Positions 7,809 through 14,965 of a stretch of DNA of 64,000 nucleotides are shown in pieces (within the stretch, counting starts at the first letter, position 1; every line of letters starts with the position of its first letter). A program made the translations under genes and the position numbers. The notes under the pieces were generated by a model that saw nothing but the letters and a program-made list of their open reading frames with translations, had not been told where the DNA came from and made no database searches. Origin of the DNA: Cladocopium goreaui (Eukaryota > Sar > Dinophyceae > Suessiales > Symbiodiniaceae); contig CAMXCT020000435.1 in NCBI GenBank assembly GCA_947184155.2, forward strand, positions 404,979 through 468,978, read 5' to 3'.

Positions 7809-8480
7809 AACACTTTGATCCGGAGCTCGCGGTTGACGTACGGCGGGGAAAACGGCAGGGAACACTCTGATCCGGAGCTCGCGGTTGAGGTCCGGCGGGG
7901 AACACTTTGATCCAGAGGTTGCTGTTGGGGTCTGGCGGGGAACACTATGATCCGGAGATATCCGGAGCTTGCGGTGGAGGTCGGGCGGGGAACACTTTGG
8001 TCCAGAGGTTGCGGTGGAGGTCCAGCGGGGACCATTCTGATCCTGAGCTTGCTGTTGGGGTCCGGCGGGGAACACTGCGTTCCAGAGCTTGCAGTTGAGG
8101 TCCGGCGGGGAACACTTTGATCCAGAGGTTGCTGTTGGGGTCTGGCGGGGAACACTATGATCCGGAGATATCCGGAGCTTGCGGTGGAGGTCGGGCGGGG
8201 AACACTTTGGTCCAGAGGTTGCGGTGGAGGTCCAGCGGGGACCACTCTGATCCTGAGCTTGCTGTTGGGGTCCGGCGGGGAACACTGCGTTCCAGAGCTT
8301 GCAGTTGAGGTCCGGTGGGGATCACTCTCATCCTGAGCTTGCTCTTCGGGTCCGGCGGGGAACACTGCGTTCCAGAGCTTGCAGTTGAGGTCCGGTGGGG
8401 ATCACTTTGATCCAGAGGTTGCTGTTCGGGTCCGGCGGAGACAACTGTGATCTAGAGCTTGCAGTTGAGGTCTGGCGGAG
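7809..8480. repeat. 40-bp minisatellite with a 210-bp higher-order unit
   Basis: About sixteen head-to-tail units of the form AACACTTTGATCCAGAGGTT plus GCTGTTGGGGTCYGGCGGGG are each exactly 40 bp, except two that are 50 bp through an internal 10-bp duplication (TCCGGAGATA). Units 7901-8110 (40+50+40+40+40) are repeated almost identically at 8111-8320, giving a 210-bp higher-order repeat. Because 210 is divisible by three, several frames stay open through both copies. I regard these as by-products rather than genes. A purine-rich GAGGAG run follows to about 8520. Confidence 0.93.
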
Positions 8481-8529
8481 GAAGGAGGAGGATGAGGATG
8501 AGGAGGAGGAGGAGGAGGCGGGCCAGTTG

Positions 8530-9700
8530 ACATAAAATCGAACAACCCTCACCTGACAGGTGCGGAAGAGCACACTTCCATTTGAATCTTCATCTTGGAA
8601 CACTGTGCCAATTTCACCCCTTACTTTCCCTGTTTCTTTTCTCCTCAACATCCCGTTGTTCCCCCAGGGCCCTCCAAAACAAGAACCCAGTGACGTAAGG
8701 ATCGGTGCAAAGAGATCCCGCGCAGCAAACGGGGGTCCAGGCCTGTGATGAGATCGAGGATCATCCCACTGGGAACTGCTTTGGTAAATGGGCTATAAAT
8801 GGCTATAATATAATAATTTATTATATAACGTTTTTTTTTAAAGGTTTAGTATGTATTATCATGTATTATAGTCTATTATAGATATGAGAAGATCCACGAT
8901 TAACGGTGGTCAGATCTCCCATTTTGGGAATAATCCACTCTGGGTAACGTAGGTTTAACCCACAACAATGATCTGATATGGATGGAATATGATGGAATAT
9001 GCATGACATATGAATGAACACTCAGTGGTTCGTATACCCTGGGGTAAACATAGAACAAATGGACATTTAATGGGGAAAGCCGTTGGGAAAATAATCTACA
9101 TTCATAGCGTTTAGTACGTCTAATATCCACATCTATGCGAGTTTGCAGGAGCAACCGGGCTGTGGGGAGGGGCACCTTTGATCACACCAGCAGCAAACTT
9201 AGAAAAAAAACAGTTGCTTCCAAACTTTGTGACCGGAATACAATAGGCAATAAGAATAATGGGTATGTAAAATCTTAATCATCCTAATCACACCCAAAAC
9301 AACCAACCAGGTTGTGGTGTTGTATTCTGGGTTACATAATCAACAACATGACATGGGACGCTCAAAATGCGGGGTCTTCCCCAAAAATATGACCGTTAAA
9401 TGAGACTTCATGGCGCAGTGAGGTTTCAAATCTTGAGATGACCCCATGTACTGTAAGTGTTCTGTTCCTCCTAACCTGCCTGTAGACTCTGAATCAGAGG
9501 ACAATCTATTAGAATATGTCAAATGAAGCAAACATGATATGTGTTTCGGCTGTTTGTCGGTGGAATCGAGCCTAGGAGCCCGCCAAAGGATGCCAAAGGA
9601 ACGTTGCGTAAACAATTGCATGTTTGGCCCACCAGACCCCCATGCAAAAGCAAACGCACAAAATCCAGTCATCTACCCATATCTACCCCCACCATAGCTC
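8530..9700. other. no gene seen
   Basis: This is AT-rich DNA between the minisatellite and the transposon. The open frames on the minus strand at 8900-9175 and 9340-9672 have no splice context or recognisable motif. Confidence 0.4.
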
Positions 9701-9830
9701 CCCAGAACTTCCATTCCTCCTTATTTAAGGAATTCCTCCTTATTTAAGGAATTCCTCCTTAAAATTCCTCCTTAAATTAAGGTGGATTTTTTGAAAAATT
9801 CCTCCTTAAAATTCCTCCTTAAATTTTCAA
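9701..9830 (+). repeat. left terminal inverted repeat with CCTCCTT sub-repeats
   Basis: The first 28 bases are shared with the other end. They are followed by three AATTCCTCCTTATTTAAGG-like units and two AAAATTCCTCCTTAAA units, ending near TTTTCAATTG. The sub-repeats resemble multiple transposase-binding sites, which is inference. Confidence 0.85.
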
Positions 9831-9834
9831 TTGC

Positions 9835-9855
9835 AAGGAGATCTTGCACCTCCTG
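9835..9855. repeat. hairpin motif copy 1 (AAGGAG-N9-CTCCTG)
   Basis: On the plus strand this is AAGGAG, ATCTTGCAC, CTCCTG. One arm base differs from the other copies. It lies just inside the left terminal repeat, next to copy 2. Confidence 0.8.
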
Positions 9856-9858
9856 CTG

Positions 9859-9879
9859 AAGGAGACTTGAAACCTCCTT
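9859..9879. repeat. hairpin motif copy 2 (AAGGAG-N9-CTCCTT)
   Basis: The arms are exact but the loop is ACTTGAAAC instead of ATCTTGCAC. Conserved arms with a diverged loop suggest that the pairing, not only the sequence, matters. Confidence 0.8.
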
Positions 9880-9905
9880 ATCCCAGATCCTGGCAGCAAA
9901 ACTTT

Positions 9906-11600
9906 TCACTTCAGCTCTGGAATCACTTGTGCTCGAAAACTTTGCAGAACACTCATGCCTATGGAATAAGGGTTGTGGCTTCCACCTTTCACAGCTCCTA
10001 AGTGAGCTAGGAAGCCACCAAAGTCTTCGTCTCGATATGTCCAACTGTCTGATGGACAAGAGTTCTGGAGCAATAAATCTAAGAAGCTGTGGTGCTTTGG
10101 TTTGATCTTCCAAGTATGGTCAGTCTCGTTTTCCAAGCTCTTGCGCAACAGCAAAAACTTTCTGCTATGCAGCAGCATTGACTGGTGATTCCATAGATTC
10201 TTGGACAAGAAAGAATAACATTGCCAGAGTTCTGTGGCAGCCATCTTGATTGTATATTCAAGCGCATTGTCATCAGCCAAAAATTCATCGCAGATTTGTT
10301 TTGCAATAGTAATCAACCCTCGAGCTTCTGCAGCTTTGGCTCGAAGTTTTGGACTTGAACTGGCTTTCTTTCTGATCATGAGGACTGTCAAAGTAGGAAG
10401 CTTGTTTTCCACACCTTCAGTCTTGTAGTAGCTTTGAATTCTGTGGAACAAGCTTTTCACCCTTTCTTTCACATTGTTGCCAGGCAAGTGATTTCCAGAG
10501 GCAATTAAATGGTGAAAAACATTGCCCATAAAATCTGCTGCCACGCCCAAGTCCACAATGTGAAGCCAGTCCAAACGAAATTGTTTGCTTGTCAGTCCTG
10601 GTGTTTGAAACAATTCATTGATGTCAATGCCAGAATTGGAAATGGATTGCAACAAAGTGAAATGGTCCAAAGGATCAAATGCCTTGCAGCTTTCAAGGTT
10701 TCGAATTTCAATTGGTTTGCACAAGCAGCAAATGGCAGCATCCTTGTTTGTCTCGCCATGCAGGAAATTGGAAAACTTCTTTTCTCATAGCCCAATCACC
10801 TCTCACTTCAAGTAAAAAAGCAGTGAAAGGCAATGCCTTGCCATTGAATGTGCTTCGTTTTTTGTCGCCTGGGTGCCAAAAGCTGCCATCATGCCTTGCT
10901 GAAGGCCAAGTGCAATTGGCTAAGTGAATAAAAGACCAAGACAAATTTCCTAGCATCTTCGACAAAGTTACTCCCTTGATGCACCAGTGCTTTGGAATAC
11001 AGCACAAAGGGATTCGCAAGGTACCATTAGGTGGAAGTAAGCCAGGAAAATTCCATGAGATGCATTCCAAAGTTTGACTTCTGTCATAATTGTAAGGTGT
11101 GCCATCGATCCAAAGGCCAAGTCCTATGGCTTCTCGAACTTGGAACTGCATTTGCATGTTCGCCAAATGTTTCTTACTGAGTTCACACATGCCACAAGTC
11201 TGCAGCAGGTCTTTCTTCTCAGAGCGCTTCGAGAAGACAAAATGAATCTCATGTGGCAAAAGAAAAGGTATCTTCTTTTCTGCTTGTGTTCCAGGATTGT
11301 AGCAAGGGATCAATGCAATGTATTCATTGAACCACAGGCAATTCTCAACATTTTTCTTTTCATATCCCTTGCCATTTTTTTTTCCCAATTGGCTTGCTTC
11401 TCACCACTGCCAGATTTCTCTGCACCTTTGACCAAATCTTTCAGACCAGTGGCTCCAGCTATTTGTGCATCTTTCATGAGCTCATTGGCTCTTCCAGCAG
11501 AGACAGTCTTGGTCAAAAACAAATTGGAAACATTGTGTCGAAACCTCTTCTGGTCAGGTTCCCCAAGGGTAGACAAATCTACCTTTCTCTTGTGAAACAT
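9906..11600 (-). pseudogene. transposase-like protein of the 5.2-kb element (two frameshifts)
   Basis: Three minus-strand frames overlap end to end and read as one protein of about 560 residues: 11600-11310 (starts MFHKRKVDLSTLGEPDQK), 11388-10708 and 10724-9906. The first shift falls in a nine-A run at 11375-11383. The second falls where GCCHL would continue into LCKPIEIRNLES. Both look like single-base indels. Conserved-looking blocks are WPSARHDGSFWHPGD, RGDWAMRKEVFQFPAW, RLDWLHIVDLGVAADFMGN and WTYRDEDFGGFLAHL. The D in RHDG, the D in DWLH and the E in RDEDFGG would suit a DDE/RNase H-fold transposase, but I infer that triad. From memory this block order is common in dinoflagellate predicted proteins. 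The start is preceded by TTTTTTCAGCTCAAG, a good acceptor, so an upstream exon is likely. Confidence 0.65.
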
Positions 11601-11719
11601 GGCTTGAGCTGAAAAAACATGTCAACATAAAAGTTCATAAGATCTCAGAAGACAAGAAGTTGCACATTGTATTTAGTTAATGCTAAATTTGGCCAATGCT
11701 TTGAAACAGGGAAACAGTA

Positions 11720-11740
11720 AAGGAGATCTTACACCTCCTT
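11720..11740. repeat. hairpin motif copy 3
   Basis: The arms are AAGGAG and CTCCTT with loop ATCTTACAC. On the minus strand it reads CAAGGAG|GTGTAAG, a plausible 5' splice site. A good acceptor (TTTTTTCAG) lies about 115 bases further on, at the start of the transposase-like frame. Confidence 0.85.
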
Positions 11741-12054
11741 GAGTCTTGTACACCAGCTTAGAAGCAGGCTCTTTTTCCAGCGACAGTTACCAGCTGCGCA
11801 TCTTCCAAGCAGATCCCTGCGATATTTTAAATCTGCATTTCCACATTCCAAAACTGACAACTGCACCAAATGCGCTTTCCAAAATCTAAGGGCCAAACAG
11901 CTCCTACAGCAATGCCTGGTGAGTTTTCACCTTGGCTTTTGCTTCTTGCAGCTTCTCTTGGCTGGAAGCAAGCCATGCTTTCGCAGCAGGCAATGATTTC
12001 GAAACGCCTTCAGGAGAAGTGTCCTCAGGAGCAAGATCTTCACTGGCTGCGACA

Positions 12055-12480
12055 TAAGATCTTCACCTCTCTTGAACAAGCACTGCCTGAGGTAAAGTGC
12101 CAAATACTTTGTAGTTGCGCATTCCTGGGTTGAGCCACAGGTTCAGGGATCTATGTAATTCTTTTCTCACCAAGCCAGCTTTATCAACAGAAACTATGAA
12201 TTTCATCCATGAATAATGTGCTTACAAGTCTCAGATGTTCTCAGGCACTCATAGTGCTTCAAAAGCTTCTTTGTTGGCATACATTTGATCATTGCGATCT
12301 GCTTGTCCATTGGGTCCACAGGGTTCTTCTCAATGGTGGCCAGTGGCTGCTTCCTCCATGGAGGCAGTTCCTTTGGAAGTTCCATTGAACCTTTCATTGT
12401 AGACTGAAAAGTGTAATGATGAAGTGAGTTGGGATGTCTCTGAATCTCCAGTTCCAAATCCAATGGTTTCTATTTTGGAT
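12055..12480 (-). pseudogene. middle coding block of the transposon, frame disrupted
   Basis: Two good minus-strand frames adjoin. At 12463-12203 the text includes ELPPWRKQPLATIEKNPVDP and KKLLKHYECLRTSETCK. From about 12208 down a second frame reads KFIVSVDKAGLVRKELHRSL, NLWLNPGMRNYKVFGTLPQA and, after a TGA, SYVAASEDLAPEDTSPEG to about 11960. GACTT|GTAAGC at the junction could be a splice donor. The intervening stops are unexplained, so I mark the block as broken. No family is recognised. It may be the N-terminal part of the transposase or a separate accessory protein. Confidence 0.4.
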
Positions 12481-12497
12481 TCAAAGTGATTTTTATT

Positions 12498-12603
12498 GGA
12501 GGTTAAAATTGGTTAAAATTAAAATTGCCAATTTTAATTTTAACCTACATAAACTGGTTAAAATTAAAATTGGCAATTTTAATTTTAACCAATTTTAACC
12601 TCC
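12498..12603. repeat. perfect 48-bp inverted repeat, 10-bp spacer
   Basis: The arm 12498-12545 (starts GGAGGTTAAAATTGG) is exactly complementary to 12556-12603 (ends CCAATTTTAACCTCC), with TACATAAACT between. Each arm is itself nearly palindromic around AATTGCCAATT. It could be a nested MITE inside the transposon or a cruciform-forming internal site. Confidence 0.9.
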
Positions 12604-12716
12604 TTATTTTTCCAATTTGAAACCTTTACAGTCATCATGCATGACCTGAATGAATTGTTTCCAGAGTTGCCAAGAGCCACTCAAACAAAGGAAATGGATG
12701 GGCATCAGCTTCGGCC

Positions 12717-12737
12717 AAGGAGATCTTGCACCTCCTT
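12717..12737. repeat. hairpin motif copy 4
   Basis: This is the canonical form: AAGGAG, ATCTTGCAC, CTCCTT. Confidence 0.85.
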
Positions 12738-12964
12738 TTTGATTCCAGTATTGGACACTAGTTTAATGATTGTGATACTGCAGGTTCAGATCATCAGCTC
12801 TCATCATCATTCCAAAGCTGATCATGTGCATCCATCAAGGCTTCAAAAATGATTCTACAGGTCCATCACCACTACATTGATCAATATGACTTGACAGCTT
12901 CAGCCATGCAGAAATGCTCATATCACAGATATCATGTTTTACTTAAATTTAAATTTAGTTTATC

Positions 12965-12985
12965 AAGGAGATCTTGCACCTCCTT
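12965..12985. repeat. hairpin motif copy 5
   Basis: This is the canonical form. On the minus strand it follows a short frame ending SLEIMGASDSLRR and would read TTTAAGGAG|GTGCAAG as a donor. Confidence 0.85.
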
Positions 12986-13114
12986 AAAGAGTCGCTTGCG
13001 CCCATAATCTCCAATGATTTTTCCATCCAAGCTCAATTGACTCAATCTACATTTGAATCCTCATCCTCTTTGGGTTTTTCGGCTTGCTCTACAGCATCAA
13101 TAGATATTTTGAGA

Positions 13115-13135
13115 AAGGAGATCTTGCACCTCCTT
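13115..13135. repeat. hairpin motif copy 6
   Basis: This is the canonical form. It lies at the 3' end of the Cys-rich frame, in a position suited to a 5' splice site on the minus strand. Confidence 0.85.
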
Positions 13136-13507
13136 TGTAAAGATGAGAAACCTAAAACATAAATTGCAATGCATTAAAGTGCAATTTATTGAAAGCCTGG
13201 TTGCAGTGCAGGTTGGATTCATGCAGCACCCATTTCGCCAATACGCTTCTTTCCCACAAATTGTGCATTTCTCAAGTAGCTTGTAGAAGGCGAGGTGGCA
13301 GGCGCTGGGGTACTTGGAGGGGGCATTGGAAGGGGCATTCTTCCAAGCACCTGGAGGGTCATGAGAACTTGGAGGGGCACCTGGAATAGGTGCTGGAGGA
13401 GGTGTATTTGGAGGTGGTAAAGGTTGCGATTGGGCATTGACATGAGGTGTCAATGCCTGGATCACCTGGTTTTGTAGCCTGATCAGCTCCAAAACACGGT
13501 CAATCTC
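13136..13507 (-). CDS. Pro-rich, Cys-rich frame following the KRPA ORF
   Basis: This frame is in phase with the 358-residue ORF but separated from it by TGA-TCA-TGA. It reads DEEIDRVLELIRLQNQVIQA, then a Pro-rich linker with PPPNTPPPAPIPGAPPS, then a cluster CTICGKEAYWRNGCCMNPTC that could bind zinc. The frame stays open to the hairpin at 13115-13135, whose sequence would offer the donor GGAG|GTGCAAG. Either the two stops lie in a very short unusual intron, or this is the C-terminal part of a protein interrupted by mutation, or it is a separate exon. Confidence 0.45.
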
Positions 13508-13519
13508 CTCATCTCATGA

Positions 13520-14596
13520 TCATCTCCAGGTGAAAGGTTTGATTTGTTTCTTGTCTCCAAAATTTCGTCTGACACCTAAAGCACCATACTTTCGACTGCC
13601 TTTGGCAGGATAATCTTCCAAGCGATATTCAGGAGATGCCAAGTCAACAGCAGCAGGTTCAGGATCAGCCACTGCAACAGCCGGCCGAGCTTCAACATCC
13701 TCTTCTTCAGAAGTGCCAAGTACTGCTTCACATGCAGCACGCTTTTTCAAGATTGCAGCAGGCCTTTTCAAGACTGCAGCAGGCCTTTTCAAGACTGCAG
13801 CAGGCCTTTTCAAGACTGCAGCAGGCTTTTTCCCACCTGCAGATTGCCTATAGATCTTCAAAGATTCATTGGGAATTTCAGATTCAAATTTGTTTTCACC
13901 AAAAGCAGCAATGGCAAAGCCATTTGGTCCTTCACTCATACTAGCTTTCTCCACCTTGCTATCCACAAAGCGACATACCACCATGGCAGTAGAATCGATC
14001 CAGGTTCCAGCACTCACAGGCTTCTTAGGACTCGCTTGGCTCTCTTCACTCGACACTTCTATCAATTGATGCTCTTGGCTATCCAATGTTTCTGAGCTGT
14101 GGCCTGGAGGAAATTTTTGCAAAAGTGGTTCATTCTCAGGCAACTGTGGGATGGAGCTCGCATTGGAACTTTGTCTCATGAGCCTTCGCTTGGCAATGGC
14201 TTTCTGAACAAACTTGCCTTTCCGCCGGTTCCCATGGAATTCTAAGCACGCCAGATAGATCTTCACAAGCTCACCCATCCAAGGATCATATTTCTTACTT
14301 GAAATTGACCATTTTGCTTTTGTTCTGATGTGTTGCACACATTCGACAATTGCAGAAGACCACTTCTTCGCTTCGTCACTCAAAGTGCGAGGGTTGACTT
14401 TCAAGGCAGCTTCCTTCAAGCAGTTTTTGGATGGTCGAATTGTTTTCTGGAACATCAAGCCCAGAAATTTTCGATAATGTTTGCAAACTTGATCAATTTC
14501 AACATCCAAGTACTCCTTGGGATCCAAACAAGCCACCTCTGCTTTCAAACATTTGCAAAGGTCTTGAACAGAAGCAGTGTTCTTAGCTCTACTCAT
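13520..14596 (-). CDS. KRPA-repeat basic protein of the transposon, 358 residues
   Basis: One uninterrupted frame starts MSRAKNTASVQDLCKC. Residues about 150-210 are polar and Ser/Glu-rich. Around residues 260-290 the unit KRPAAVL is repeated four times, coded by near-identical 21-base units at about 13745-13830. The C-terminus reads YGALGVRRNFGDKKQIKPF then TWR and a TGA stop. KRPA tracts resemble AT-hook-like DNA-binding stretches and are frequent in dinoflagellate proteins, and the IRRxFGDKKQ motif also recurs there in my recollection. It sits at the 5' end of the element's coding strand. A role as a DNA-binding partner of the transposase is inference. Confidence 0.7.
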   Translation of the reverse strand: MSRAKNTASVQDLCKCLKAEVACLDPKEYLDVEIDQVCKHYRKFLGLMFQKTIRPSKNCLKEAALKVNPRTLSDEAKKWSSAIVECVQHIRTKAKWSISSKKYDPWMGELVKIYLACLEFHGNRRKGKFVQKAIAKRRLMRQSSNASSIPQLPENEPLLQKFPPGHSSETLDSQEHQLIEVSSEESQASPKKPVSAGTWIDSTAMVVCRFVDSKVEKASMSEGPNGFAIAAFGENKFESEIPNESLKIYRQSAGGKKPAAVLKRPAAVLKRPAAVLKRPAAILKKRAACEAVLGTSEEEDVEARPAVAVADPEPAAVDLASPEYRLEDYPAKGSRKYGALGVRRNFGDKKQIKPFTWR

Positions 14597-14657
14597 CTTG
14601 AGAAATCAACTGCAGATGCGATGCACAAACATTACATGCAGGAAATCAAAACACCAA

Positions 14658-14678
14658 AAGGAGATCTTGCATCTCCTT
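14658..14678. repeat. hairpin motif copy 7
   Basis: The arms are exact and the loop is ATCTTGCAT, so the minus strand has GGAG|ATGCAAG rather than GTGCAAG. It lies upstream of the start of the KRPA ORF, so it is not a standard donor here. Confidence 0.85.
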
Positions 14679-14749
14679 GAAGCAACCTCCAAAGGTTGGT
14701 CTTGATGCAATGATGATGTCAAAGATGTATCTAAAAACAGTGAAAAAAA

Positions 14750-14946
14750 TCCTCCTTAAAAAAAAATTAAGGAGGAATTTTCAAAAAAAAAACACCTTAA
14801 TTAAGGAGAATTCCTCCTTAATTAAGGTGGAATTCCTTAATTAAGGAAAAAATCCTCCTTAATTAAGGGAATTCCTCCTTAATTAAGGTGGAATTCCTTT
14901 AAAAAAAAACTCCTTAAATTAAATAAGGAGGAATGGAAGTTCTGGG
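14750..14946 (-). repeat. right terminal inverted repeat with TTAATTAAGG sub-repeats
   Basis: Read inward from 14946 on the minus strand, the 28-base terminus is followed by five or more palindromic CCTTAATTAAGG units joined by GAATTCC and runs of A or T. It is longer (about 195 bases) and more regular than the left end. Confidence 0.85.
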
Positions 14947-14965
14947 TCTCGTGACTTCTGATGAC

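Follow-up and report, generated by a model that had tools for sequence, protein, structure and literature searches.

The locus considered here raises the question of what kind of element is enclosed by two perfect inverted repeats in the genome of the dinoflagellate Cladocopium goreaui, and of how it could move. The window, i.e. the whole 64,000-nucleotide stretch that was analyzed, comprises positions 404,979 to 468,978 of contig CAMXCT020000435.1; coordinates refer to the window unless another contig is named. An earlier sequence-only reading, made without database searches, had proposed an undescribed multi-component DNA transposon of 5.2 kb with compound termini at 9701..14946. Our analysis makes it likely that this is one copy of a family of cut-and-paste DNA transposons, recently active in its dinoflagellate host, whose transposase is a DDE enzyme of the CMCT type (the group of CACTA/EnSpm, Mirage, Chapaev, Transib and RAG1).

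The terminal arms of the window copy are 28 nucleotides long and 100% complementary, with 5,190 nucleotides between them. The left repeat (9701..9728, forward strand) begins with CCCAGAACTTCC and matches the right repeat (14919..14946, reverse strand) over all 28 bp, as the sequence-only reading had stated. The 20-nucleotide tip occurs at just two places in the window if up to three mismatches are allowed (chance mean 0.01). Between tip and genes both sides carry AT-rich CCTTAATTAAGG / CTCCTTAAATTAAGG arrays, which agrees with the sub-repeats described earlier behind the termini: the left array (9713..9823) consists of ATTCCTCCTTATTTAAGGA / AATTCCTCCTTAA units and the right one (14743..14920, limits approximate) of CCTTAATTAAGG-type palindromic units. 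The element is flanked by a target-site duplication TC (9699..9700 and 14947..14948); no strand is assigned to arrays or duplication. With tips of the form CCC..GGG and a duplication of 2 bp, the ends are not those of CACTA elements, as had been noted.

Further copies with the same ends were sought in 1,165,616,438 bases of the host genome (6,202 contigs). A 17-bp tip was found 127 times without mismatch, 63 times in forward and 64 times in reverse orientation, while the reversed control gave 2 and 0 matches; this count therefore suggests about 60 elements. The positions of 100 of the 127 tips were listed, and all counts of proximity to a tip rest on these. A 68-nucleotide query from the left end gave 40 scored matches (40 of 126 candidates scored), every one 100% identical. 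Among 14 copies (91 pairs) the median pairwise substitution divergence is 1.6% (range 0.29-2.69%), and the window copy differs from the 13 others by 1.95-2.69%. The family is young and was probably active in the recent past. The proposed size of 5.2 kb applies to the window copy (5,246 bp) but not to the family, since the window copy is decayed, with 2 frameshifts in open reading frame (ORF) A and ORF C only as a fragment; 12 of the 14 copies measure 5,717-5,950 bp and one, L025, 2,959 bp. A long copy of 8,455 bp on contig C4955 (463539-471993) has TT on both sides, and further neighboring tips among the matches listed, where not every pair was examined, lie 5.2 to 22.7 kb apart. The dinoflagellate origin assumed earlier is borne out by 172 exact occurrences of the dinoflagellate spliced leader in the host genome (reversed control 0).

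Two side observations concern unusual copies. L025 (C1134:107172-110130) is a deletion derivative in which the two ends are retained together with an AA duplication, and in which ORF A is open. On three contigs (C302:774582-775863, C9:141728-143000 and C2029:116302-117574) element ends occur in pairs that face outward, with a segment of about 1.27-1.28 kb between them; on C302 these ends adjoin the transposase sequence of the element itself. Their flanks are common to other copies, and the sameness of the segment was judged from the flanks only. Such pairs may reflect recombination between copies, a moving compound unit or an assembly error.

The target duplication was defined from the flanks of end pairs. 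In 29 of 34 end pairs (20 short flanks, 13 whole-copy loci and the window copy) the flanking dinucleotides are identical, compared to 150 of 1122 mismatched pairings; a 3-bp duplication occurs in none. Independent insertion sites are slightly fewer than 34, because a single site on two contigs accounts for both L020 and L021, and L067 joins flanks found at other copies. The 29 duplications are TA (8), AA (5), TC (4), TT (4), TG (3), CA (2), GT, AT and GA (1 each). The element had been described as not TA-flanked; the window copy has TC, and TA is the commonest duplication in the family. Tc1/mariner elements, for which a TA target duplication is obligate, were ruled out by this proportion, and Helitrons by the inverted repeats and the target duplication.

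Precise insertion is confirmed at two sites. L017 and L061 sit within tandem repeats, and their joined flanks match nearby unfilled repeat units without gaps (195 bp at 99% and 166 bp at 97%, respectively). They come from 29 flank joins tested against the available loci, four of which matched across the join; the other two, L059 and L018, were dropped as matching mainly their own neighborhood. For the window insertion the search returned no empty allele and matched only its two flanks.

Better-preserved copies contain four open frames, ORF A (566 amino acids), B (403), C (311) and D (159), arranged B, D, C, A in the coding direction on the same strand. That all coding frames run one way was seen correctly in the window copy, where the transposase-like, KRPA-repeat and Cys-rich frames named by the sequence-only reading are all present on the reverse strand (11600-9906, 14596-13520 and 13492-13097). 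ORF A of the window copy (9906..11600) is split by its two frameshifts into three overlapping frames. The basic KRPA-repeat protein, ORF B (13520..14596), is a 358-residue frame matching residues 1-356 of the 403-residue protein, and the Cys-rich ORF D (13103..13513) matches residues 15-151 with 82% identity to the long copy. The remnant of the Lys-rich ORF C (11907..12062, reverse strand like the others) corresponds to residues 260-311 of 311.

On contigs up to C4793, where the tip listing is complete, 68 of 71 close transposase matches (at least 67% identity) have an exact tip no more than 3 kb away; the exceptions are on C3849, C1177 and C683. A lack of second copies with the same ends, or a transposase residing mainly away from such ends, would have spoken against a transposon; neither is the case, because the tip occurs 127 times genome-wide and 68 of the 71 transposases are near tips. 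Close ORF B matches listed are mostly on contigs with a transposase match or a tip, as judged by inspection, and for one decayed ORF B match, on C553, the nearest tip among those listed is about 41 kb away.

To what extent the gene set belongs together can be judged from relatives in the same genome. A search with the C-terminal 272 residues of ORF A gave 145 matches (142 of 575 candidates scored), a close group of 67-100% identity followed by relatives of 30-47%. Three related families were examined, and E-values for B, C and A were computed for a set of 9 loci. In two of them, the second and the fourth, ORF A is approximately 36-37% identical to that of the first family. The second family (C766 and C2035; C3887 shows the same insertion as C2035) has perfect CCCAGCTCTTCCAAAAG ends 7.1 kb apart, AT-rich arrays and the duplications TA and CC. 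Its ends occur 8 times exactly in the genome (control 0), six times in these three contigs and twice elsewhere with a different interior. Its genes follow in the same order, B (E 9e-9), C (4e-21) and A (9e-83); one B frame also carries KRPA, and C was confirmed genome-wide (E 2e-16). The fourth family (C4889) has perfect CCCTGATAGACCAATAG ends, 7,662 bp and the duplication AT, again with B (7e-6), C (9e-13) and A (3e-79) in this order, and its B and C also appear in the genome-wide lists (E 1e-7 and 4e-10). In the third family (C6138 and C488) the stretches examined reach one sharp end only, CCCTGAGCATCGAAAAG, with a CCTCTAATTAAGG array behind it. Elsewhere, C189 and C1813 each carry neighboring homologues of B and C, and on C5447 about 9 kb separate B from A. 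The proposal of a multi-component element is strengthened by two other families keeping B, C and A together; the third showed only A.

Two further arrangements were seen among the relatives. In the C3005 copy of the fourth family (L077) an internal stretch is inverted relative to C4889 (L098), and C4156:11230-27639 contains five matches to transposase relatives (35%) in one direction at a spacing of about 4.0 kb, apparently a tandem array.

The class of the transposase was approached through an alignment of nine ORF A relatives, seven of them full-length rows. In the full-length rows the acids E120, D168, D271, D346, D352, D526 and E527 are invariant; H119, C291, C294, H349 and H506 are the invariant cysteines and histidines of the alignment. 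The candidate DDE triad is D168 (7 of 7 covering rows), D271 and E527 (9 of 9 each), with codons at 11104-11106, 10795-10797 and 10026-10028 on the reverse strand. Between the second D and the last E lie C291xxC294 and H506, both present in 9 of 9 rows; the codons of C291 (counted from the neighboring codon), H349 and H506 are at 10735-10737, 10560-10562 and 10089-10091 of the same strand. The sequence-only reading had named the motifs RHDG, DWLH and RDEDFGG for the transposase-like protein. For the acidic triad WIDG (D168), GDW (D271) and YRDE (E527) are a better choice than RHDG and DWLH: the RHDG aspartate is present in 7 of 8 rows, and that of DWLH is invariant (9 of 9) but off the RAG1 spacing.

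Mouse RAG1 provides D600, D708, E962, C727/C730 and H937/H942 (PMC4914335) and the active-site H795 (PMC7204232) for comparison. The distance between the first and second D is 103 residues in ORF A and 108 in RAG1, that from the second D to the first C 20 and 19, and CxxC is common to both; from the second C it is 55 and 65 residues to the active-site-type H, 212 and 207 to the later H, and from there 21 and 25 to the E. This spacing can be regarded as a strong lead rather than proof. The CMCT signature is given as C(2)C and H(3-4)H between the second D and E together with duplications of 2-5 bp (PMC12730594), and the duplications found here are 2 bp long, including TA and CC in the second family and AT in the fourth. 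The view that the ends fit no superfamily signature stands for the termini, which match none that could be checked, but a place in the CMCT clade (CACTA-RAG1 type) is indicated by the invariant residues of the transposase and by the plan of its subterminal arrays.

These aspects suggest a possible mechanism. ORF A would be a DDE enzyme of the RNase-H-like kind whose zinc site, CxxC...H, lies between the second D and E; it would cut the CCC..GGG tips and insert with a 2-bp stagger, with TA as the commonest target. The AT-rich subterminal arrays would be binding sites for accessory proteins that the element encodes and that pair the ends or load them, in the manner of TNPA in maize En/Spm. In that system TNPD is proposed to cut the tips and TNPA binds the subterminal repeats, both being required, according to the available text of PMC2613891. 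The present family follows this layout, with a larger number of separate accessory frames. Candidates for DNA binding are the basic KRPA-repeat protein B and the Cys-rich D, and a candidate for bridging is the Lys-rich C. Here we would ascribe cutting to A and array binding to B and/or D. Decayed copies with good ends, such as the window copy, could then be moved in trans.

Several results weigh against this reading. The likeness to RAG1 concerns residue spacing only, with residues picked after the alignment had been inspected. The second histidine of H(3-4)H, four residues past H506, is H in 3, E in 5 and D in 1 of 9 rows. Tips of the types CCCAG..CTGGG and CCCTG..CAGGG are not CA..TG, a feature that CMCT elements show "in most cases" (PMC12730594), usual but not universal. 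Intact A, B and C have no Pfam match at E up to 10, and Pfam includes a Plavaka model (PF18759); five of six relatives of A gave none either, and the sixth a phage-tail match below the cut-off (E 0.02). As to the RNase H fold, which in the CMCT clade has a zinc-binding insertion and for which the sequence-only reading had suggested looking, there is no credible match to ORF A in the PDB (best E 0.12 with the single sequence, 1.4 with a profile), and the single-sequence fold model of the 272-residue frame of the window is uninformative (pLDDT 36.5). With regard to the gene set, the E-values quoted for B, C and A of the related families refer to the set of 9 loci only, the second-family B is absent from the genome-wide ORF B list, the stretches tested of the third family contain nothing that matches B or C at E up to 1, only A being recognized, and beyond the first family nothing resembles ORF D convincingly (best E 0.035, same set). 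Finally, five of the 34 end pairs are without duplication (L037, L026, L041, L071 and L075); L037 and L026 have a flank common to another copy, and the three others are unexplained.

Some candidates were discarded. Neither for the transposase nor for the accessory frames did Pfam, or the PDB by sequence and by profile, yield a usable match. The PDB matches to ADAM17 (E 0.12 and up) were judged to be chance, as was a phage-protein match of one third-family frame (E 0.0014, below the cut-off), considered a chance match of a helical protein. Relatives in viral contigs were not found. Transposase_21 (PF02992) gave no match in intact ORF A and none in the host genome, where the control search was likewise empty, so that its absence from the genome is not demonstrated.

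A real multi-gene DNA transposon could also carry a transposase from a separate DDE superfamily, with the CMCT layout arising by chance or convergence. The missing Pfam and PDB similarity would agree with this, as would the replacement of the second zinc-motif histidine mostly by E or D, and CCC..GGG tips with varied 2-bp duplications fit no named lineage whose termini are quoted in the available text of PMC12730594. However, chance or convergence would have to account for invariant acids, CxxC and histidines in RAG1-like spacing and order, and also for a plan of subterminal arrays and accessory protein that matches CACTA elements (PMC2613891), and we regard this explanation as unlikely.

Doubt of another kind concerns B, C and D, which might be passengers or captured host genes without a role in transposition, only transposase and ends being of importance. 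ORF C has 91 genome matches, of which 7 span residues 1-311 (6 without a stop, one with), one covers 1-303 and 31 are limited to residues 184-311; the 2,959-bp L025 derivative keeps only ORF A whole, and the third family lacks a B or C match. But passengers would be expected to be lost, while B and C homologues of 25-46% identity accompany distant transposases in the same order and on the same strand in two further families, and B is found with C, or with A, on C189, C1813 and C5447; shortened copies might depend on whole ones for movement in trans. A passenger role for all three seems rather improbable to us. There is very little, in our view, to commend a spread of the copies by segmental duplication or assembly artefact instead of transposition. 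The one site on two contigs (L020/L021) and the single shared flanks at L037, L067, L028, L049, L059, L022, L014 and L026 would be in line with it, but most flanks differ between copies, exact 2-bp duplications are present in 29 of 34 end pairs, and unfilled units exist at two sites; the duplications and unfilled units speak against it for most of the copies studied. A recently active CMCT-type transposon with accessory proteins remains the preferred reading.

A further hint towards the organization of the element arises from short internal palindromes. The AAGGAGATCTTGCACCTCC palindrome occurs 198 times in the genome (control 0). Among the 100 places listed, a script was run on 44 and found each of these to be no more than 10 kb away from an element end or transposase match on the lists; the remaining 56 were compared by eye only. 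Palindromes of the AAGGAG-N9-CTCCTT type lie in the window copy, on the forward strand, beyond the 3' end of ORF A (9835..9855), between ORFs C and A (11720..11740), twice between D and C (12717..12737 and 12965..12985), overlapping the 3' end of the ORF D frame (13115..13135) and upstream of ORF B (14658..14678). In L018, where they share one orientation and have 0-3 mismatches, they are at 528, 1871, 1941, 2763, 3011, 4016 and 5907; these positions precede B, follow B, precede C, separate C from A and follow A. The long copies L010 and L023 additionally show one in the opposite orientation. The palindromes of the second family are of another type (CTCCTA..TAGGAG) and precede B, separate B from C and follow A; between C and A none was found there. 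Two palindromes tested for folding form 8-bp stems, with z values of -2.0, modestly better than shuffles, and -4.7. The half-site AAGGAG is also present in the terminal arrays. The palindromes may bind a protein, shape the RNA or be relics.

The element also contains a 48-bp perfect inverted repeat with a 10-bp loop (12498..12603, no strand assigned), whose 17-bp core is repeated and was found in 7 of 7 loci looked at. Outside and to the left of the element, at 7853-8483, lies a GC-rich minisatellite with periods of 40 bp and 210 bp.

We tentatively propose, as a possibility about which we are rather undecided, a separate unnamed superfamily-level lineage of RAG1/CACTA-type transposons of dinoflagellates, its marks being tips of the form CCC(A/T)G..C(A/T)GGG, duplications of 2 bp and a B-(D)-C-A cassette whose genes are inherited together. 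In the family studied best, short palindromes specific to the element occupy every gene gap, and their AAGGAG half-sites recur in the terminal arrays, so that a single protein encoded by the element might serve both to assemble the ends and to punctuate or silence its genes.

The description of the element as undescribed stands insofar as nothing of the kind was found in open-access literature, Pfam or PDB; this comparison excludes Repbase and most subscription papers. Within the open-access texts, as far as they were available, few papers join dinoflagellates with transposons (one is PMC7789003), and none describes such a multi-gene element. Being young, with frames still open, exact ends and a defined 2-bp duplication, the family offers a concrete system to test transposition in dinoflagellates and a possible start for gene-delivery tools in these organisms. 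It might also serve as a distant comparison for RAG1-like enzymes that work with partner proteins.

Among known systems the plan most resembles CACTA / En-Spm elements such as maize En/Spm and soybean Tgmt*, for which the available text of PMC2613891 describes short inverted repeats backed by subterminal arrays of short repeats, a transposase gene accompanied by a different element-encoded protein, internally deleted derivatives, and accessory proteins and array sequences that vary between families. In contrast, the tips are CCC..GGG instead of CACTA, the duplication is 2 bp and not 3 bp, Transposase_21 is not matched, and the accessory proteins are separate frames instead of alternatively spliced tnpA/tnpD transcripts. 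The fungal Plavaka elements share 2-bp duplications in some lineages and the C(2)C and H motifs between the second D and E, but differ in their tips (TGT..ACA or CATCA..TGATG), and some have a TET/JBP dioxygenase instead (PMC12730594, available text). ORF A, for its part, has no Pfam match to any family. ESTA elements, also from fungi, have CMCT motifs and TA duplications, TA being the commonest duplication here, whereas nine dinucleotides are duplicated in the present family; this comparison was made by description and not by sequence (PMC12730594). With Transib and RAG1 (PMC4914335, PMC7204232) ORF A has in common how the catalytic acids are spaced, the CxxC motif, a histidine of active-site type (H349 compared to H795) and a histidine before the last E. 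Sequence similarity to either is not detectable. Transib elements create 5-bp duplications and have termini different from those found here. The element fails the terminal signature of each named lineage checked, yet bears most CMCT marks, and judged by its sequence features it most likely represents a new lineage of CMCT type that works in the manner of En/Spm.

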